From Oscillospiraceae bacterium (GTDB taxonomy: Bacteria; Bacillota; Clostridia; Oscillospirales; Oscillospiraceae), in the NCBI GenBank assembly GCA_017458335.1, contig JAFTFT010000005.1, forward strand, positions 248,001-312,000: a DNA stretch of 64,000 bases, read 5' to 3'. Positions 14,570 to 27,813 of the stretch are shown piece by piece. The first letter of the stretch is position 1, and each line of letters begins with the position of its first letter. Under the pieces are notes generated by a model. It saw nothing but the letters and a program-made list of their open reading frames with translations. It ran no database searches and had not been told where the DNA came from. The position numbers and the translations under genes were made by a program.

Positions 14570-14596
14570 TAGAAAAACACGTTTGGAGGAATGATC

Positions 14597-16687
<2,091 letters not shown>

Positions 16688-16708
16688 GAATCAGAATAAT
16701 TCAGTTTA

Positions 16709-16740
16709 GCCCCCGCTGCGGAACTTGGCGCAGCGGGGGC
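16709..16740 (+). terminator. Probable terminator of glnN
   Basis: Perfect 12-bp stem GCCCCCGCTGCG / CGCAGCGGGGGC with an eight-base loop, 21 bases after the stop; the T-run is absent, so efficiency is uncertain. Confidence 0.6.
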
Positions 16741-16830
16741 GTACTGCTGCCTGAGGAGAGAAAAGAACGCCGCCCGGATGCCGGAGATAGTCAGCCGGTT
16801 AAGCCCTCGTGAAATGAAAACAGATTATTC

Positions 16831-16859
16831 TTGCCCAAACAGGAGAAAACCTTTATAAT
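16831..16859 (+). promoter_or_regulatory. Probable promoter of the PP2C phosphatase gene
   Basis: TTGCCC at 16831-16836 and TATAAT at 16854-16859, spacer 17. Confidence 0.65.
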
Positions 16860-16942
16860 AAAACGTCAGAAACCGGTATCATGGGTTGCGAGGAGCGCGG
16901 GCTGAAAAACTCTGCCTGCGGGAGTGCCTGAGGAGAACAGAC

Positions 16943-18604
16943 ATGAGATTGAACAATAAAATCAGTAAGAGCATTGCGTTTCGCAGCATCCTGATCATTG
17001 TGACGCTGCTGATTGTCTATTCGGCGGTCTCAGGCATCATGGGATACCGCGCCACCAGCCAGTCGCTCTATGACCAGTATACCGAGGACGCGTTTCAGGT
17101 TGCAAACGCGGCTGCATTTGTCATCGACGGAGATTCGCTTGATGAAATGATAGAGGGCGGCGAGGACAGCCCTCTTTACCGCGAGACCTGGCTGCGGCTG
17201 GATCAGCTCTGCAATGCTTTTGATGCGACTTTTGTCTATGTGATTCGGCCGAATCTGCCGGATTACGATAAGATTACCTTTCTCTTTTCCACCGTCCGCT
17301 GGGAGAGCGAGTATACGCCCTATGAACTCGGCTATGTCAGAACCACGACCAATGACGAGTATAAGCTGAAATACCGGAATCTGTATGAGGGAAACTCGGA
17401 TCATGAGCTCCTGCTGCTGAACGACGCAAGCTATAAACGCTCTTCTCACCACATCACCGCCATGGTTCCGGTGAAGGACACGGATCAGCGCACCCAGGCG
17501 ATCATCTGTGTACAGCGGCAGATGGACGAAATCCGTCAGATTCAGATGAGTTATGTGTCCCATATACTCAGAAGACTGCTGATGTTTGCCGCCGTGGAAA
17601 TCATCGGGATTGAGCTTTTTCTGAGCGAACAGCTCATCAAGCCGGTCACGAAGATCACGGAAGAGGCGAGCCGCTTTGCGCGGGAGAATGAAACGGCGGA
17701 GAAGAAGCTGGGCGACAGTATCCGCGGGCAGGATGAAATCGGCGTTCTCGCCCGGTCCATCGACCGGATGGAAGAACAGATCACAGACTATGTGCAGCAC
17801 CTTACCGCGGTCACGGCGGAAAAGGAACGGATCAGCACGGAGCTGAATGTAGCCCGGCAAATCCAGGCTGATATGCTGCCCAGCGTGTTCCCCGCTTTCC
17901 CGGACCATGATGACTTTGACATTTTTGCGAGCATGACTCCGGCGAAGGAGGTCGGCGGCGACTTCTATGACTTCTTCCTTGTGGACGACGACCATCTTGC
18001 CATGGTGATGGCCGATGTTTCGGGAAAGGGTGTGCCCGCGGCACTCTTCATGGTCATCACCAAGACCCTGATCAAAAACCGCGCCCAGATGGGCGACAGC
18101 CCTGCCGATATTCTCTATCATGTCAACAATCAGCTCTGTGACGGAAATGAGAGCGACATGTTTGTCACAGTATGGCTGGCGATCCTCGAGCTCTCCACCG
18201 GAAAGGGCATCGCCGCCAATGCCGGGCATGAACACCCGGTTCTCTGCCGAAAGGACGGCAGGTACGAACTGGTCGTATATCGGCACTCGATGGCGGTGGC
18301 GGCGATGTCGGATATCCCGTTTAAGGAGCACGGTTTTGAGCTTCATCCCGGGGACAGGCTGTTTGTTTATACCGACGGCGTCCCCGAGGCAACGAACATC
18401 AATAATGAGCTTTTCGGTACGGACCGAATGCTGGAAGCGCTGAACCGGAATCCCGAAGCGGCTCCGGAGGAGCAGCTGAAGGCGGTCAGGCAGAGCGTAG
18501 ACGACTTTGTCGGTGAAGCACCACAGTTCGATGACATGACCATGCTCGGCTTCTGCTATTACGGCCCGCAGAGACAGGAGGAGACCGACACGACCGGCGC
18601 ATAA
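16943..18604 (+). CDS. Membrane-bound HAMP/PP2C (SpoIIE-type) serine phosphatase
   Basis: 553 residues from ATG 16943 (TGAGGAG upstream). Order of parts: transmembrane helix near residues 13-35, an extracellular sensing region to about 200, a second helix near 210-228, a HAMP linker (PVTKITEEASRFA to MEEQITDYV), then a PP2C_SIGMA domain from about 310. Metal-binding aspartates sit in GGDFYDFF and MADVSGKGVPA, and near the end in FVYTDGVPEA and FDDMTML. Such RsbU/SpoIIE-like phosphatases usually act on anti-sigma-factor antagonists. No partner gene is adjacent, so its target is unknown. Confidence 0.9.
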   Translation: MRLNNKISKSIAFRSILIIVTLLIVYSAVSGIMGYRATSQSLYDQYTEDAFQVANAAAFVIDGDSLDEMIEGGEDSPLYRETWLRLDQLCNAFDATFVYVIRPNLPDYDKITFLFSTVRWESEYTPYELGYVRTTTNDEYKLKYRNLYEGNSDHELLLLNDASYKRSSHHITAMVPVKDTDQRTQAIICVQRQMDEIRQIQMSYVSHILRRLLMFAAVEIIGIELFLSEQLIKPVTKITEEASRFARENETAEKKLGDSIRGQDEIGVLARSIDRMEEQITDYVQHLTAVTAEKERISTELNVARQIQADMLPSVFPAFPDHDDFDIFASMTPAKEVGGDFYDFFLVDDDHLAMVMADVSGKGVPAALFMVITKTLIKNRAQMGDSPADILYHVNNQLCDGNESDMFVTVWLAILELSTGKGIAANAGHEHPVLCRKDGRYELVVYRHSMAVAAMSDIPFKEHGFELHPGDRLFVYTDGVPEATNINNELFGTDRMLEALNRNPEAAPEEQLKAVRQSVDDFVGEAPQFDDMTMLGFCYYGPQRQEETDTTGA

Positions 18605-18855: not shown

Positions 18856-19536
18856 ATGGAAGAAACCACCCATGCATTATTTTCAATCGGACCACTGGAA
18901 GTTACCGGAGCCGTAACGACAATGTGGGCCATCATTCTTGTTCTTACTGTTCTCAGCTGGCTGGCCACGCGCAATATGAAGGAAGTGCCGGGAAAGTTGC
19001 AGAACATCGCGGAGATGGCGGTAGGAAGCCTGCAGAACTACTTTAACGGCACGTTGGGGACCAGGCTTTGCAAAAAGTATTTCCCGGTGTTCGCGACCTT
19101 CTTCATCTTCATCATCGTCAGCAACTACTCCGGCCTGCTTCCAGGCGCCGGACACCTGAAGGCATTCCATGTGCCGACGGCCAGTCTTTCCGTGACGGCG
19201 GGACTCGCGATTGTTGCGTTCTTCACGACTCATTTTGTCGGGGTGAAGGAGAGAGGCTTCGGGAAATACCTGATCGGAGTCCTCACTTCGATGACGATCC
19301 CGCTGTTTTTCCTGGCGATCATCGAGCAGTTTATCCGTCCGCTGTCGCTGGCACTGCGACTTTACGGCAACCTGTATGGTGAGGAATCGGTCACAGAATA
19401 TCTGTACCGGCTGTTCCCAATCGGTCTGCCGCTGGTGATGAACATCCTGAGCCTGCTGTTCTGCTTTATTCAGGCGCTGGTATTCACCATGCTGATCTCG
19501 ATCTACACGGTCGAGGGAATCGGCGAAGAAGAATAA
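18856..19536 (+). CDS. atpB: ATP synthase Fo subunit a
   Basis: 226 residues. AAAGGAGGTGA gives an ideal Shine-Dalgarno. Hydrophobic segments are spread over the length; the essential arginine of the ion path is in LSLALRLYGNLYGEE, and the C-terminal helix contains FIQALVFTMLISIYT. It forms the two ion half-channels against the c-ring. It is the first gene of the operon a-c-b-(b'/delta/alpha)-gamma-beta-epsilon. No atpI gene precedes it. Confidence 0.95.
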   Translation: MEETTHALFSIGPLEVTGAVTTMWAIILVLTVLSWLATRNMKEVPGKLQNIAEMAVGSLQNYFNGTLGTRLCKKYFPVFATFFIFIIVSNYSGLLPGAGHLKAFHVPTASLSVTAGLAIVAFFTTHFVGVKERGFGKYLIGVLTSMTIPLFFLAIIEQFIRPLSLALRLYGNLYGEESVTEYLYRLFPIGLPLVMNILSLLFCFIQALVFTMLISIYTVEGIGEEE

Positions 19537-19572: not shown

Positions 19573-19803
19573 ATGGCATCTTCTGGACTCATTGCACTTG
19601 CCGCAGCGATTGCGATCGCCGTCAGCACCATCGGCCCCGGCATCGGACAGGGCCTCGCCGCTTCCAAGGCCATGGAAGCCATCGCACGCCAGCCTGAATC
19701 CGCCGGAACCATCCGTTCCACACTGATCCTCTCCATGGGCATTATGGAATCGCTGACCATCTACGGTCTGCTGATCGCGTTCATGCTGCTGAATAATATG
19801 TAA
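19573..19803 (+). CDS. atpE: ATP synthase Fo subunit c
   Basis: 76 residues, two helices joined by the polar loop ARQPE. The ion-binding carboxylate is Glu59 in IMESLTIY. Compared with the Na+-translocating c subunit of Ilyobacter tartaricus, Gln26 (IGQG), Glu59, Ser60 and Tyr64 line up with Gln32, Glu65, Ser66 and Tyr70, with the same 33-residue gap between Gln and Glu; the Thr67 position is Leu. This suggests Na+ rather than H+ coupling, though a protein test is needed to decide. AGGAGG precedes the start. Confidence 0.95.
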
Positions 19804-19829: not shown

Positions 19830-20252
19830 ATGAGTATCAATCCATCAGAACTGATATGGACCGTCATCAACTTCTTTCTGTTGCTGTTTTTGCTGAAGCA
19901 TTTTCTGTACACCCCGGTGCTGCGCTTCATGGAGGACCGTCAGGCCCGCATGGATGCCAAGCTCAATGAGGAAAAGCAGGCGCAGGCCAAGGTCGAGGAA
20001 AATGACGCACGGCTTCTGAGCGAAAAGGCGAAGAGCCGTGAGGAAGCAAAACGCATTCTGGCCCAGTCCGGTGACGAGCTGGAGAAGCGCCATGCCGAGG
20101 CCATGAGCCAGGCCCGCGCCGCCTCCAGCCAGGTGCTGAAAGACGGCGAGGCTGCCCTGAGCGAGCAGCGTGAGAAAACCGCCGAGGCACTGCGCACGGC
20201 CACACCGGAGCTGGCAGAGCTGCTGGCAAAGCGGCTGCTCAACGAGGAGTAA
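19830..20252 (+). CDS. atpF: ATP synthase Fo subunit b (short)
   Basis: 140 residues, some 20 shorter than usual. One N-terminal membrane helix (IWTVINFFLLLFLLKHFLYTPV, residues about 8-29) is followed by a charged, Ala-rich coiled coil to the end. It forms the peripheral stalk. The next gene begins with a second b-like stalk, so the stalk is probably a heterodimer of this protein and the N-terminal arm of the fusion protein. Confidence 0.9.
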   Translation: MSINPSELIWTVINFFLLLFLLKHFLYTPVLRFMEDRQARMDAKLNEEKQAQAKVEENDARLLSEKAKSREEAKRILAQSGDELEKRHAEAMSQARAASSQVLKDGEAALSEQREKTAEALRTATPELAELLAKRLLNEE

Positions 20253-20294: not shown

Positions 20295-22568
20295 ATGGGA
20301 ACATTTCACTATACCTTATTATATGGCCTGATTAACTTCGCCATCCTGGCAGTCGCCCTGTATTTTGTCGGCAAGAAGATCATTCCGAAAATGTTCGGCG
20401 GACGCCGTACCGGAATCGTCGACCAGATCAAGGCGGCTGATGACGCGGAGGAAAAGGCGAAAGAACTGCTCGCCGGGATTGAAACTGCCAATCAGAAGGG
20501 CGAGGAGGAATGCGCCGGCATCCTGAGTGCGGCGCGCGAATCCGCGGCTGCAGAAAAAGAACGTGCGGAAGCCATGAGCCGCAAGACTCTGGATGAGCTG
20601 AACGCAGACAACGAAAAGTCCCTGCAGTATCAGACAAAGTCCGCGCGTACCGCCCTGACCCGCGACACCATGGAAGAGGTGATCACGCAGGCGGCGGTTC
20701 TGCTGGCGGATGAAAAGTATGCCGATGCCCGGGCCAGGATGACGGAACGCCTGATCGACCGGGCGGAGAAAAAGCTCCGGATCACCCGCGGCGATTTGAT
20801 GGCCTTTCAGGAGAAGGGCTTCATCCCGGTGGAGATGCACGGCGTGACAGAGACGCCGGAGAAGGACATCGTCAGAGTCAAGGCGGCGATCCTGAATGCC
20901 CTGCGTGAGGCGGGGGAGACGGCGACGGAAGACCAGATCCGGATTACGACCGGTGCGGATGAGAGCCTGATCGGCGGCGCCTACCTGAAAGTCGGCGACA
21001 CCGTCTATGACAGCACCCTCAAGGGCATGCTGCAGCGTGTAAGGGATTCGGTCAGTGTCCTGGAACACGACGACGAAGCGCTTATTGACGCGCTGAAGGA
21101 AGAGCTGGCCAAGGCAGACAATGAGACGGCGGTCTACCAGAAGGGAACCGTCATCAGCGTCTCCGACGGCATCTGCCGCATCGCCGGCGTGTCGGATGCC
21201 ATGGCGGGCGAGCTGATTGAATTCAACCGGGATCTGCGCGGCATGGTGATGGACCTGGAGAAGGACAACATCGGCGTCGTGCTGCTGGGCGACTATTCCG
21301 GCCTGCAGGAGGGCGATGAGGTCCGCCGCAGCGGACGCATCATCGAAGTCCCGGTGGGCGAGGAGATGATCGGCCGCGTGGTCGACTCCCTCGGCAATCC
21401 CATCGACGGCGGCGGTGAAATCCACACCACCGAGACCCGGCCGATTGAGAGCCCGGCCCCCGGCGTGATTTCGCGCCGTCCGGTGTCGGTTCCGATGCAG
21501 ACCGGTATCAAGGCCATCGACGCCCTGGTTCCCATCGGACGCGGCCAGCGTGAGCTGATCATCGGCGACCGGCAGACCGGCAAGACGGCGATCGCCATCG
21601 ACACCATCATCAACCAGAAGGGCAAGGACATGATCTGCATCTATGTCGCCATCGGCCAGAAGGAGTCGACAGTGGCAGGCTGTGTGCAGAAGCTGCGCGA
21701 GCACGACGCAATGGACTATACCATCGTGGTCTGCGCCAGCGCGTCCGAGTCCGCTCCGATGCTCTACATCGCGCCTTATGCGGGCGCGGCCATGGGCGAA
21801 TATTTCATGCACAAGGGCAAGGATGTCCTCATCATCTATGACGATCTCTCCAAGCAGGCGGTTGCCTACCGTGAGATCTCCCTGCTGCTGCACCGTCCGC
21901 CCGGACGTGAGGCCTATCCCGGCGACGTCTTCTATCTGCACTCCAGACTGCTGGAGCGTGCGGCAAGACTCAGCGAGGAAGCCGGCGGCGGCAGCATGAC
22001 CGCCCTGCCCATCATCGAGACGCAGGCGGGCGATATCTCTGCCTATATCCCGACGAACGTTATCTCCATCACCGATGGACAGATCTTCCTGGAGACGGAT
22101 CTCTTTAACTCCGGCGTCCGTCCGGCCGTCAACGTCGGTCTCTCGGTCTCCCGTGTCGGCGGCTCAGCCCAGCTGGGCGCCATGAAGCAGGTGGCCGGAC
22201 GTCTGAGAATGGATCTGGCCCAGTACAGAGAGCTGGCTGCGTTTGCGCAGTTCGGTTCCGACCTGGACAAGGCGACCCGTTCCACCCTGCACCGCGGCGA
22301 CCGCATGACGGAGCTTCTCAAGCAGGGCCAGTATGCCCCGATGGAGGCTTCGGATCAGGTCATCTCCATCTATGCGGTGAGCGAAGGCTATGCCGACGGC
22401 GTTGAGCTGAAAGACATTGCCCGGTACGAAAAGGGCCTGCTGCCCTATGTGAACAGCCGCTATCCGGATCTGAAGAAGCACATCATGAGCGGCAAGAAGC
22501 TGGGAGAGGATCAGCTCAAAAAACTGAAGAAGCTCATAACGGAGTACACCGAGAGCTTTGAAGCGTAA
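20295..22568 (+). CDS. atpA: ATP synthase fusion: b'-like stalk + delta C-terminal domain + complete alpha subunit
   Basis: 757 codons without interruption; normal alpha is about 500. Residues 5-26 are a membrane helix ([19 protein letters not shown]), and 30-163 a charged stalk like subunit b. Residues about 176-252 match the C-terminal half of delta, including [27 protein letters not shown]. From about 260 a short helix leads into alpha ([15 protein letters not shown] near 284), with the P-loop GDRQTGKT at 424-431 and arginine finger Arg620 in [10 protein letters not shown]. The N-terminal helical domain of delta is missing, and no separate atpH exists in the operon. The only in-frame ATG near the junction (codon 245, 21027) lacks a well-placed Shine-Dalgarno. 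Mycobacteria have a b-delta fusion; fusion on to alpha as well is not one I know. Confidence 0.93.
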
Positions 22569-22580
22569 GGAGGCTGAAGC

Positions 22581-23450
22581 ATGGCAAACCTGAGAGCCAT
22601 CCGTACGCGCATCAAGAGCGTTGAGAACACCCGCCAGATCACCAAGTCCATGAAGATGGTCGCGGCGGCCAAACTGCGCAAGACCCAGTCCGCGTTTGCC
22701 AGCCTGCGCGCCTATGCCGGGGAGAGCGGCAAGCTGCTGGCAGAGGCGTCGGCCGGACAGACGGGAATTGAGAATCCCTATCTGACGCCGCACGCGGAAT
22801 GCCGGAGAATCTGTTACGTGCTGATCGTCGGCAACCGCGGCCTCTGCGGCACCTACAACCAGAGCCTTCTGCGCTACTGCGAAAACCTCATCAAGGACAG
22901 TGACAAAGAAAACTACGTCATCGTCTGCGGACGCTGGGGCAAGGATCTGATAGCCGCGGCCGGACTGGAAGTCCGGGAGAACTATGAGATCGGCGATACC
23001 CCGACCCATGAGGAAGCGCTGACCCTGGCCGAAAGGCTCAAGGAACTCTACCGGGAAGGGAGCGTCGACGAGATCCGTCTGGTGTATCAGCATTACCGTT
23101 CCGTTCTGTCGCAGGTGCCGGAACAGGCACAGCTGCTTCCTCTGCAGAAACAGGAGGAGACGGGCAGTGCGGACAGAAGCACGATCTTTGAACCGGACCG
23201 TGATAGCCTGCTTAACACGCTGCTGGACATGTACATCGGCAATACCGTCCATGCCGTTCTGCTGGAGGCCCGGACCGGCGAGCATTCCGCCCGCATGACC
23301 GCGATGACCGCGGCGGCGGACAACACGGAAGAGCTCATCAACGATCTGACCCTGGAACTCAACCACGCACGCCAGGCAGCCATTACCACCGAAATCTCCG
23401 AAATCGCAGGCGGTGCGGAAGCACTTCGGAACAACACTGCCGGAGGATAA
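22581..23450 (+). CDS. atpG: ATP synthase F1 subunit gamma
   Basis: 289 residues, normal length. N-terminal helix LRAIRTRIKSVENTRQITKSMKMVAAAKL and C-terminal helix MTAMTAAADNTEELINDLTLELNHARQAAIT form the rotating central coiled coil. VLIVGNRGLCGTYNQSLL is the conserved Rossmann-like core. It begins 12 bases after alpha with GGAGG. It transmits rotation from the c-ring to the catalytic head. Confidence 0.96.
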   Translation: MANLRAIRTRIKSVENTRQITKSMKMVAAAKLRKTQSAFASLRAYAGESGKLLAEASAGQTGIENPYLTPHAECRRICYVLIVGNRGLCGTYNQSLLRYCENLIKDSDKENYVIVCGRWGKDLIAAAGLEVRENYEIGDTPTHEEALTLAERLKELYREGSVDEIRLVYQHYRSVLSQVPEQAQLLPLQKQEETGSADRSTIFEPDRDSLLNTLLDMYIGNTVHAVLLEARTGEHSARMTAMTAAADNTEELINDLTLELNHARQAAITTEISEIAGGAEALRNNTAGG

Positions 23451-24839
<1,389 letters not shown>

Positions 24840-24854: not shown

Positions 24855-25115
24855 ATGGCAAAGTCTTTTCATCTGCGGATCATGACCGCGGAGGGCACGC
24901 TGCTGGAAGGGGAGGCGGACTACTGCCACATCCCGACGACGGCGGGCTCTGTCGGCGTTCTGGCCGACCACGCCCCGATGCTCTGCGCGATGCCGGAGGG
25001 CGAGACGCTCTGCCGGATGGAGGACGGAACGGAGAAGACCGTCCGGCACTCCTCCGGCGTGGCCGATGTCCGCGACAACCGGGTCACCATTCTGGCCGAC
25101 CGCGCGGAACTGTAA
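24855..25115 (+). CDS. atpC: ATP synthase F1 subunit epsilon, beta-sandwich only
   Basis: 86 residues against the usual 130-140. The beta-sandwich is complete (FHLRIMTAEGTLLEG, ADYCHIPTTAGSVGVLADHAPM, SSGVADVRDNRVTILADRAEL), then the protein stops before the two C-terminal helices. Those helices inhibit ATP hydrolysis and bind ATP in other bacteria, so that control should be absent. Short epsilons are known, for example in Chlorobium. A strong terminator follows at once, so this is a natural end and not a frameshift at the window level. Confidence 0.9.
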   Translation: MAKSFHLRIMTAEGTLLEGEADYCHIPTTAGSVGVLADHAPMLCAMPEGETLCRMEDGTEKTVRHSSGVADVRDNRVTILADRAEL

Positions 25116-25200: not shown

Positions 25201-26250
25201 TTACCGGCCGCGGAAGTCGCTGTGAAACGGGTCATAGACGCTGCTGTCGCCGACAGCGGCGGGACCGTCCTTTGTCGTGCCGCCCGGAACATAGGTCACC
25301 GGAAGACGGAAGATGCTCTCATGGGTGGAGGATTCAGAAGAGAGGAGAAGATCCACCGCGGTCTCCGCCATCCGGCGAAGAGGCTGGACAATGGTGGAGC
25401 AGACATAAAAACCCGTCGCAAAATTGATAATCCCGTCATAGCCGATGATCTGGACATCGTCTGGGACCCGGACACCGTTCCTTTCCAGATAATTGATGAC
25501 GCGTCTGGCAAGACCGTCGGTGTTACAGAAGATGCCGTCAAAATCGAAACGGCTGTCATGAAGATGTTCCATCAGGAAGCGGTAGATCGGAGCTTCGGTC
25601 TCTTCATCATTGACGTAGAGAAGCTCATATTCCGTCCCGGTGCGGCGGCAGGCCTCTTCAAAGCCGGGGCCGCGCCGGTCCGCTTCGCTCTGAATCTCGG
25701 GGCCGATGCGCAGGAAGAGAAGTCTGCGGCAGCCGAGCTCCAGCAGCTTTTCTGCCGCCATCTGTCCGCCGCGGAAGTTATCGGAGGACACGCAGGGAAT
25801 ATCCGGGTGAAACTGCCGATCGATGGTGACAACCGGAACGTCAGCTTCGACAACAAGATCCGGACGGTAGGTCAGGGCAATGATACCGTCGACCTTGTTC
25901 TGCTCAATCAGACGAAAACACTTTAGCTCAGCGTCCGGATCAAAGTTCGTGATCATGACGTTGGTGAGATAACCGCGGCGCATCAGCGAAGCGGTCAGCT
26001 CATCGATCAGCGACGCAAAGAAGGGATGCCGAAGAGACGGCATCAGCAGCCCGACACAGAAGGTCTTGTTTGTTTTCAGGCCGCGGGCATAGTTGTTCAC
26101 GCGGTAATTGAGCTTTTCCGCGGCGGCTTCCACGCGCTCGCGGTATTCTTCACCGACCGGGAAACCGTTGAACACCCGGGAGACGGTGCCGAGCGCCACG
26201 CCCGCTTCCCGGGCGACATCTTTCATAGTTGGCTGTAAACTGCGACTCAT
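25201..26250 (-). CDS. LacI-family regulator of the sucrose/alpha-glucoside locus
   Basis: 349 residues. The N-terminal helix-turn-helix reads MKDVAREAGVALGTVSRVFNG, followed by the hinge RVNNYARGLKT, and a periplasmic-binding-protein-like ligand domain (residues about 60-335). It is transcribed divergently from the ABC importer. Two near-palindromic sites with a central ACGTTT lie in the shared promoter region and another at the GH32 promoter, so it likely represses import and hydrolysis until sugar binds. It may respond to sucrose or a fructoside; the effector is not evident from the sequence. Confidence 0.92.
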   Translation of the reverse strand: MSRSLQPTMKDVAREAGVALGTVSRVFNGFPVGEEYRERVEAAAEKLNYRVNNYARGLKTNKTFCVGLLMPSLRHPFFASLIDELTASLMRRGYLTNVMITNFDPDAELKCFRLIEQNKVDGIIALTYRPDLVVEADVPVVTIDRQFHPDIPCVSSDNFRGGQMAAEKLLELGCRRLLFLRIGPEIQSEADRRGPGFEEACRRTGTEYELLYVNDEETEAPIYRFLMEHLHDSRFDFDGIFCNTDGLARRVINYLERNGVRVPDDVQIIGYDGIINFATGFYVCSTIVQPLRRMAETAVDLLLSSESSTHESIFRLPVTYVPGGTTKDGPAAVGDSSVYDPFHSDFRGR

Positions 26251-26295
26251 CGAAGCGGATTCCTCTCATCTTTCTGTCTGAGACAGTATATAGAT

Positions 26296-26301
26296 ATTAT
26301 A
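26296..26301 (-). promoter_or_regulatory. -10 box of the LacI regulator gene
   Basis: TATAAT on the minus strand, 46 bases before the start codon; no good -35 box was seen. Confidence 0.4.
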
Positions 26302-26404
26302 ACAAGCAAACAGAGAGAAGAAAAGACCGATTTGTGAGATGAGCTTTCGTCATTTTGCAACAAAAATGTGAAGGATATTTATGCAAGTTGCGAGAATTTC
26401 CGAG

Positions 26405-26418
26405 CGATAACGTTTTCG
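26405..26418 (+). promoter_or_regulatory. LacI-type operator O1, upstream of the ABC importer
   Basis: CGATAACGTTTTCG, palindromic around the central CG with a single mismatch. It lies just upstream of the -35 box at 26432. Confidence 0.6.
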
Positions 26419-26431
26419 GAAAAGGGAGGAA

Positions 26432-26460
26432 TTGACACGGATAATCCCGTATGTTAATAT
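26432..26460 (+). promoter_or_regulatory. Promoter of the ABC importer operon
   Basis: Consensus TTGACA (26432-26437), 17-base spacer, TAATAT (26455-26460). Flanked by operators O1 and O2, a standard arrangement for LacI-type looping or blocking. Confidence 0.85.
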
Positions 26461-26474
26461 ATTGTTCACAGCGA

Positions 26475-26486
26475 TGTAACGTTTCA
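26475..26486 (+). promoter_or_regulatory. LacI-type operator O2, downstream of the promoter
   Basis: TGTAACGTTTCA differs at one base from the perfect palindrome TGAAACGTTTCA, the form known for ScrR-like sucrose repressors. Confidence 0.65.
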
Positions 26487-26565
26487 TGATACGCTTTTCC
26501 GAACGGAATCGGGTGCGCCATGGCCGTTATGAAAAAGTAAAATGAAATCAGAAAGGAAGCAGAAC

Positions 26566-27813
26566 ATGAAAAAAACAATTGCGTTGCTCCTCGCGCTGGT
26601 CATGGTTTTCGCCTTGGTCGGTACCTCCGCTTTTGCGGCCCCGGTTGAAGTGACCATCTTCAACTCCAAGATGGAGATCCAGAGCCAGCTGGAAGAACTG
26701 GCGAACGAGTGGAATGCAGACCATGATGATGTCAACATCACGGTCTACTATTCCTCCGACACCGTCGCGGCGCACATGGCCTCCCGCTATGCCGCCAAGA
26801 ATCCGTACGTCATCTCCATGGTCGACGCGAAGGACATCTACTCCCTCGGACCCGAGCATGCCCTTGACATGAGCGATCAGGACTGGGTCAAGGACACCAC
26901 CCAGGCCATCACGGTTGACGGCAAGGTCCTCGGCTTCCCGGTCTGCGTCGAAGCCCGCGGCATCCTCTACAACGCCAGCGCCATCGAGGCTGCCACAGGT
27001 GAAGCCTTCGATCCCGCCGCCATCAAGACGACCGAAGATTTCCAGGCCCTGATCGATGCTCTGATTGCCGGCGGCATGGCGACGCCCTGCGGCCTGCAGA
27101 AAGAGGACTGGTCTCTTGCCGCGCATTTCTTTGCCTCTGTCTATGAGATGCACGATGATCCCGATGCCTTCATCGCCGGCATCAAGGACGGTTCCGTGAA
27201 CCTGGCGGACGATGCTGTTTTCAATGCCCTGATGGACACCTTTGATGTCATGAAGGCCAACAACTGGATGAAGGACGCCCCGCTCTCCGCTGTCCGTGAG
27301 GACACCGAGATGTACCTCGCCCTCGGCGAGATCGCGTTCAAGTACGGCGGCAACTGGGACTGGTCCGACATCAAGGAGTTTGAACCCGATGAGAACCTCG
27401 GCATGATGCCGGTTCCCAGCGCCCTGGAAGGCTACAACGACAAACTCGTCGGCGGCGGCTCCAAGTACTTCTTCATCGACAACTCCGTCTCCGCTGAGCA
27501 GCAGGAAGCTGCCAAGCAGTTCCTCAACTGGCTGGTCTATGACGAAGCCGGACAGGACTTCCTGGTCAATACCTGCGCGCTTGTTCCCGCCTTCTCCAAC
27601 ATCACCCTGCCGGTTTCCGATCCTCTCGGCGCCTCCGTCAAGAGCTATGCGGATACCGGAGCCATGGTCGGCAACTACAACTACCTGCCGGATGACCACT
27701 ATGCCAAGGTCGGTATCTCCTTCCAGAAGTATCTGGGCGATCAGATTGACCGCGCGGGCTTTGCCGATGAAGTGACCGCATACTGGGCCACGGCCGAGGT
27801 CGGCGCCCACTGA
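26566..27813 (+). CDS. Carbohydrate ABC transporter solute-binding protein
   Basis: 415 residues from ATG 26566 (AAAGGAAG upstream). The N-terminal signal peptide ends at a type I site (TSAFA before APVEV) with no lipobox cysteine, unusual for a monoderm. The rest is a family 1 extracellular solute-binding fold (VTIFNSKMEIQSQLEELANEWN, AVREDTEMYLALGEIAFKYGGNWDW, FLNWLVYDEAGQDFLVNT). It binds an oligosaccharide and hands it to the two permeases downstream. A strong hairpin after the stop probably keeps its mRNA more abundant than that of the permeases. Confidence 0.92.
   Translation: MKKTIALLLALVMVFALVGTSAFAAPVEVTIFNSKMEIQSQLEELANEWNADHDDVNITVYYSSDTVAAHMASRYAAKNPYVISMVDAKDIYSLGPEHALDMSDQDWVKDTTQAITVDGKVLGFPVCVEARGILYNASAIEAATGEAFDPAAIKTTEDFQALIDALIAGGMATPCGLQKEDWSLAAHFFASVYEMHDDPDAFIAGIKDGSVNLADDAVFNALMDTFDVMKANNWMKDAPLSAVREDTEMYLALGEIAFKYGGNWDWSDIKEFEPDENLGMMPVPSALEGYNDKLVGGGSKYFFIDNSVSAEQQEAAKQFLNWLVYDEAGQDFLVNTCALVPAFSNITLPVSDPLGASVKSYADTGAMVGNYNYLPDDHYAKVGISFQKYLGDQIDRAGFADEVTAYWATAEVGAH

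Follow-up and report, generated by a model that had tools for sequence, protein, structure and literature searches.

A conserved b'-deltaC-alpha gene fusion in F-type ATPases of clostridial genomes and the peripheral stalks it may form

An Oscillospiraceae bacterium encodes, in one uninterrupted frame of its F-type ATPase operon, a b-type stalk segment (b'), the C-terminal domain of the delta subunit (deltaC) and a complete alpha subunit. We confirmed that this triple fusion is a genuine gene, conserved in one lineage, and its sequence leads us to favour, with somewhat better than even confidence, an enzyme with three b:b' peripheral stalks in which each alpha carries its own half stalk. The gene lies in a stretch of 64,000 nucleotides (hereafter the window; GenBank assembly GCA_017458335.1, contig JAFTFT010000005.1, positions 248,001 to 312,000 of the forward strand) and is divided as follows, in positions of the window and residues of the protein.

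20295..22568, + strand: b'-deltaC-alpha fusion gene, 757 aa (uninterrupted frame, ATG at 20295, stop ending at 22568)
20295..20774, + strand: b' segment, residues 1-160, an N-terminal membrane helix, judged from the sequence, and a stalk helix (PF00430 at 7-126; profile match 4-158)
20811..21050, + strand: delta/OSCP C-terminal domain, residues 173-252, without a preceding N-terminal domain (OSCP profile 114-171 of 172; profile match 173-248)
21051..21137, + strand: deltaC-alpha linker, residues 253-281 (D239-Q282 span, start scans and comparison with 9jc1_I)
21138..22568, + strand: alpha subunit, residues 282-757 (TIGR00962 at 263-755)
21564..21587, + strand: P-loop GDRQTGKT, residues 424-431 (from the sequence)

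A first-pass annotation had read this frame as b' stalk, delta C-domain and complete alpha in the order of the peripheral stalk, and this was borne out by Pfam, TIGR00962 and profile-profile comparison. Pfam placed ATP-synt_B at residues 7-126 (E 5.6e-13), OSCP at residues 196-252 (E 1.1e-7, covering only positions 114-171 of the 172 in the profile) and the alpha domains ATP-synt_ab_N, ATP-synt_ab and ATP-synt_ab_C at residues 283-347, 404-619 and 626-750. TIGR00962 matched residues 263-755 with 797 bits (cut-off 484) over profile positions 7-501 of 503, which identifies an F-type alpha of full length. Profile-profile comparison used 60 aligned triple fusions, namely the window gene and 59 of the 64 named ones described below; L085, L101, L111, L153 and L155 were left out as near-copies or sequences with an extended start. 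Positions 13-167 of 171 in the canonical b profile aligned to residues 4-158 (prob 98.8) and positions 1-73 of 77 in the delta C-domain profile to residues 173-248 (prob 99.2), so that the transition from b' to deltaC takes place within about 15 residues. The delta N-domain obtained a prob of 0.3 in the same comparison, in agreement with its reported absence. A whole delta N-domain between b' and deltaC is ruled out by length, the N-domain profile scoring nothing there and the b profile extending to residue 158. A short remnant of the end of that domain is possible, as judged from the alignments: residues 120-200, taken as a sub-alignment, matched whole delta from profile position 58 to 133 (prob 91.8), residues 110-285 did so from 58 to 179, short sub-alignments matched b weakly (prob 6-7), and the delta chain 5t4o_L, presumably that of E. 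coli, gave a weak match to residues 127-252 (E 0.0023).

The P-loop GDRQTGKT and the motif SVSRVGG, whose R we take to be the arginine finger, are both present in the window alpha. The annotation had called P-loop and arginine finger intact, which holds for the two motifs. Among the 60 aligned fusions S617-G622 of SVSRVG and the P-loop residues G424, D425, R426, G429 and K430 are invariant, Q427 and T428 are kept in at least 90%, and the last P-loop T is replaced by S in L042. The D239-Q282 span that leads from deltaC into alpha measures 43-48 residues in all 60, with a low conservation of the linker sequence itself (0.34), and no frameshift or stop is present at codons 245-275, where the annotation had placed a possible break.

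In the operon, the order of genes is a, c, b, fusion, gamma, beta, epsilon and atpH is missing, as had been noticed before. The genes around the fusion are these.

18856..19536, + strand: atpB, subunit a, 226 aa (PF00119, E 3e-44)
19573..19803, + strand: atpE, subunit c, 76 aa, carboxylate in MESLTIY (PF00137, E 5.5e-18)
19830..20252, + strand: atpF, separate b, 140 aa, C-terminus shorter than in canonical b (PF00430, E 1.8e-16)
22581..23450, + strand: atpG, gamma, 289 aa (PF00231, E 1.6e-85)
23454..24839, + strand: atpD, beta, 461 aa (TIGR01039, 807 bits)
24855..25115, + strand: atpC, epsilon, 86 aa, a length that covers the beta-sandwich domain and leaves no room for a C-terminal helical domain (PF02823 at 5-84)

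The neighbours on either side (14591-18604 and 25201-27813) encode a type III glutamine synthetase, a SpoIIE-type phosphatase domain, a LacI-type regulator and an extracellular solute-binding protein. We also searched the whole assembly, a 2.95 Mb draft that is 83.7% complete, in which the only OSCP match was the fusion itself, with its C-terminal part alone. PF00006 found four proteins there, alpha and beta of the window operon together with V-type subunits B and A, which belong to a second rotary ATPase of this genome (contig C25, 78529-80711); neither a separate F-type alpha nor an atpH/atpA pair, which the annotation had thought might exist elsewhere, was found in this 83.7%-complete assembly. 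It holds one gene for subunit a (atpB of the window) and two b domains, those of AtpF and of the fusion. Fusions of this kind, with deltaC and alpha in one frame and the delta N-domain missing from both chain and operon, are called deltaN-alpha below.

To define the spread of the fusion we scanned named genome contigs, a sampling dominated by metagenome-assembled genomes (MAGs), with the deltaC-linker-barrel alignment and kept the best 80 of 378 relatives. Complete triple fusions of 734-812 aa were encoded at 64 of these 80 loci. The other 16 comprise five genes that are shortened or cut by a contig end (L100, L106, L121, L147 and L151), one that is both cut and interrupted (L083), two split loci (L122 and L133) and eight canonical loci with separate delta and alpha. 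A separate upstream b was recognised at 62 of the 64 triple loci (the exceptions are L127 and L136), and the b' part passed the b model in 48 of the 64 fusions, those that remain being of similar length. Judged by their record titles, the hosts are mainly MAGs of Clostridia, many of them sampled from rumen or gut; one record without a MAG label, bacterium MS4 ('Amazonia massiliensis', L099), may represent a culturable host. Chloroflexota are represented by five MAGs (L124, L125, L129, L148 and L153), which formed one group nested in Bacillota in the 131-alpha tree described below, suggesting horizontal transfer.

Within the window's family, a profile running from b' through deltaC and linker to the start of the barrel was matched over its full span in 36 of 400 genomes from 12 genera, the window's own genome included and some of the others overlapping with the named loci. 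In four of the 36 the frame is shorter than the whole fusion (G057, G081 and G103, at contig ends, and G599); outside the 36, the match was partial in G596, G767 and G770 and split in G041. Five of the 36, all of one genus (g11), showed one in-frame TGA in the matched span, and their fusion frames are whole (745-748 aa). Recoding or a further split was rejected as an explanation, since in four of the five the TGA terminates the b gene next to it; at the fifth (L174) the b gene was not recognised and the fusion frame is likewise whole. At those four loci (L173, L175, L176 and L177) the TGA of b abuts the fusion in frame, so that read-through would yield a b-b'-deltaC-alpha chain. G105, a full-span match with two stops, turned out to be a b followed by a separate deltaC-alpha gene, and neither it nor G788, a full-span match with two stops from the phylum-wide scan, was counted as a fusion. 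Among the matches listed for 398 genomes of the phylum, the window's own was alone in spanning the profile without stops.

The presence of the fusion at 64 of the 80 loci and of the full-span profile match in 36 of the 400 genomes argues against an artefact. An assembly error, a frameshift or a decayed gene, which a draft genome at 83.7% completeness might suggest, has a negligible probability in our view given that the fusion is found in the MAG RUG14376 (756 aa, 94% identity across the protein) and at 63 other named loci, that the profile matched 35 other genomes of the family and that the gene is under coding constraint, with dN/dS values between the window and four relatives of 0 to 0.48 in the 15 of 16 segment comparisons that were computable, several of which have saturated dS.

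The relationships of the fused alphas were then analysed in two trees. From 153 alpha rows, 136 of them distinct, 131 entered the first tree (L001, L048, L073, L083 and L100, a copy of the window or cut or interrupted sequences, were omitted), and the second contained 68 rows, 64 from the first and four added. The triple fusions together with three split loci formed one clade in both, of 68 + 3 rows in the 131-alpha tree (SH-aLRT 99) and of 23 + 3 rows in the 68-alpha tree (100/99), where the sister branches are the canonical locus L126 (98/91) and then Paenibacillus (97/86). The two-part deltaC-alpha genes of the window's family fell on separate branches near complete delta-alpha fusions and canonical genes. 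Forcing the 45 fused alphas in the 68-row tree into one clade changed the log-likelihood by -688 units and was rejected (p-AU 1.7e-51), the 45 including complete delta-alpha fusions and the test alone not separating gains from losses. We read these trees as pointing to at least two independent origins of deltaN-alpha. At the split loci (L011, L122 and L133), inspected by eye, a b' with one or two deltaC-like domains precedes a separate deltaC-alpha gene. Because these loci are nested in the triple clade, a secondary split is likelier than an ancestral state and we consider them less likely to be ancestors of the fusion, although a topology in which the triple fusions form a clade without them was not rejected (p-AU 0.054). 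The separate b' and deltaC-alpha genes at these three loci also imply that the covalent attachment of b' is dispensable.

Several related arrangements were met in the course of the search. A single ORF of 667-697 aa joins complete delta (N and C domains) to alpha at L017, L052, L056, L062, L064 and L065, possibly a halfway stage toward deltaN-alpha. A tandem pair of delta C-domains is followed by alpha in a 675 aa protein at L028 (1111-3138; also in L053). At L055 and L072 a free delta C-domain gene of 72 aa precedes a separate alpha, with neither N-domain nor fusion; L072 and L073 are two sites in one genome, and L073 has its alpha in two pieces. Fusions of b to deltaC (226-272 aa) with a separate alpha occur at L050 in the window's family and at L180, L181 and L182 elsewhere in the phylum.

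F1 contains three alpha subunits, so every intact fused alpha contributes its own deltaC and b'. The first-pass annotation had pictured one stalk made covalent; this has to be replaced by a set of three b'-deltaC arms on each F1, probably with several peripheral stalks. Three copies of the fusion would assemble into alpha3beta3, three deltaC domains would cap F1, and as many b' helices would run down to the membrane, each with one AtpF. Since the delta N-domain is missing from the threefold axis, no known limit to one stalk remains and three b:b' stalks are predicted; since b' is covalently linked to alpha, it would be unable to dissociate from F1. The lengths of the two b proteins were as expected if b' alone reaches deltaC: out of 171 positions of the b profile, the match ended at a median of 166 in b' (n=48) and of 139 in the shorter AtpF-type ORFs of related loci (n=58; 135-150 aa), and AtpF seems to have given up its delta-contacting tip, which b' now appears to carry into deltaC. 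Against three stalks stands the presence of one a and one separate b gene, and limiting amounts of AtpF or a would result in fewer stalks.

An engineered enzyme bears on this prediction. According to Ueno et al. 2025 (PMC12229609), delta residues 105-178 were joined to alpha in a delta-deltaN-alpha Bacillus PS3 FoF1, with the delta N-domain deleted and the epsilon C-domain removed. As many as three stalks formed on this enzyme, every one accompanied by an a subunit, and its H+/ATP ratio was 5.8. Its stalks averaged about two biochemically and 1.26 by cryo-EM, with one stalk in 51% of the particles and none in 15%, and triple-stalk structures were also reported. The authors blame the loss of stalks on grid preparation. 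The stalks that were observed always retained an a subunit. They argue that the delta N-domain on the threefold axis restricts the enzyme to one stalk, state that all ATP synthases known until then have a single a subunit and express the need for an enzyme whose several stalks stay firmly attached. In our view a b'-deltaN-alpha enzyme is a natural candidate for this. The proposal of the annotation that the covalent bond replaces the grip of the N-domain agrees, by analogy, with this design logic. Comparison of residues 179-354 of the window fusion with the PDB gave chain 9jc1_I as best match (E 3.4e-30), the linker being aligned with a gap of 3 residues; 9JC1 was deposited for the engineered enzyme (PMC12229609).

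Least certain in this model is how many a subunits are present. We tentatively propose that the F-ATPases of this gut lineage have three covalent stalks and up to three a subunits round one c-ring, in which case the ions per turn would equal the number of c multiplied by that of a; this would be a low-gear enzyme, a laboratory design reached on more than one branch and with the stalk welded on. Like its engineered analogue, the natural enzyme may use many ions per ATP, which suits a small ion-motive force. Given three stalks and several a subunits, the c-ring would no longer be the sole determinant of the ion/ATP ratio, which bears on anaerobes living at small ion-motive force. RnfC is encoded in the genome with a score above its cut-off, and we suggest Rnf as one conceivable partner giving a modest ion-motive force. 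The 46 c subunit ORFs at triple loci carry EA..IY (39) or ES..IY (2) or were unmatched (5), the window having MESLTIY.

Eukaryotic V-ATPase has three EG stalks and one a subunit. Three stalks with a single a could likewise be formed here, giving a stiffer stator and an unchanged ion stoichiometry. The single a gene that was found and the possibility that the b' transmembrane helices reside in lipid without a speak for it; the observed stalks of the engineered enzyme, which always kept their a subunit (PMC12229609), speak against it, and we regard it as somewhat doubtful. Idle arms are an unlikely alternative, in which all three alphas are fused but a single b'-deltaC arm joins b and a, the remaining two being unused or packed against F1. 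Such an enzyme would work with one stalk, and the fusion would serve just to secure subunit stoichiometry or assembly. It would account for a single a and a single separate b gene, as in ordinary enzymes, and the one-stalk and stalkless particles of the engineered enzyme fit it as well (PMC12229609). However, two unpaired membrane-anchored b' per complex would presumably be costly, every segment of the fusion appears constrained by dN/dS, and the stalk loss attributed to grid preparation concerned a stalk that, unlike a covalent b', can leave in that way (PMC12229609).

The remaining alternative restores the ordinary stoichiometry: one full-length fusion per complex as a minor product, with the other alphas made by internal initiation or protease cleavage, hence one stalk and three alphas. 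We scored Shine-Dalgarno (SD) duplexes in 62 of the 64 triple fusions (the motif search was unsuccessful in L090 and L092, which were excluded). An in-frame ATG, GTG or TTG is present between the end of deltaC and the barrel in 61 of the 62, an ATG in 40, and a candidate start with an SD energy of -8 or better in 6, compared with 4.2% of 1179 in-frame NTG codons in the NBD. The test is weak because just 32 of the 62 presumed true starts reach -8. In the window the single in-frame ATG of this stretch lacks an SD sequence, with a duplex energy of +0.7 against -12.2 at the true start, and the best linker candidates in eight genes of the family reached -6.5 (L036 and L039). No conserved internal start was found in the relatives, the positions and codons of the candidates being scattered (the Met at alignment column 245 is present in 25% of the 60 rows), and a consensus scan of the + strand gave no promoter-like match within the gene. 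Internal initiation as a general answer to the stoichiometry is unsupported for want of a conserved start, notwithstanding the 6 SD-like candidates and the 40 genes with an ATG. Together with the constrained D239-Q282 span and the failure to find a separate F-type alpha in the assembly, this makes the minor-product explanation quite improbable, and we retain three b:b' stalks as the preferred reading.

The short epsilon of the window prompts a comparison among loci. At 68 triple-fusion loci epsilon measures 104 aa or less in 26 of the 29 complete cases, the other three being of 116, 126 and 137 aa, and it has 138 aa at another triple locus, L038. At non-triple loci, mostly two-part fusions, it has at least 134 aa in 25 of 25 complete cases; the canonical loci retrieved are too short to include it. 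A short epsilon is thus associated with the fusion and not required by it, as the long epsilons at some triple loci indicate, and the association is confounded by kinship.

When set beside known systems, a canonical F-ATPase such as that of L126 has the gene order b, delta, alpha of the window, in separate genes and with a two-domain delta. Eukaryotic V-ATPase resembles the predicted enzyme in having more than one peripheral stalk on its non-catalytic subunits and differs in its other stalk proteins, the lack of a fusion and its single a subunit. The b-delta protein of M. smegmatis (PMC8617483) also joins b to delta and pairs with a separate b-type partner (b'), but it contains a canonical, complete delta with an extra helical bundle, alpha is separate and there is one copy per enzyme, unlike in the window. 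Natural delta-deltaN-alpha fusions were noted in Acidaminococcus fermentans and in UniProt entries G4Q3K6 and A0A1I2C5T3, and a multi-stalk enzyme was proposed for them (PMC12229609). They share with the window deltaC and alpha in one chain and the lack of a delta N-domain; the description given in the excerpted text, on which alone they were compared, does not mention b in the chain. The engineered PS3 FoF1 (PMC12229609) corresponds to the window in deltaC joined in frame to the alpha N-terminus, the loss of the delta N-domain, a linker that agrees within 3 residues and an epsilon without its C-terminal domain. It differs in being made in the laboratory and in its separate, detachable b, whereas in the window the chain itself begins with a covalent b', and a distinct further b has its own gene. 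Our searches of open-licence PMC papers found no description of a b-delta-alpha gene fusion. Within that literature the annotation's belief in an undescribed three-part fusion holds for b' as the third part of the chain and fails for the deltaC-alpha half, since deltaN-alpha and the multi-stalk idea are already in print (PMC12229609).
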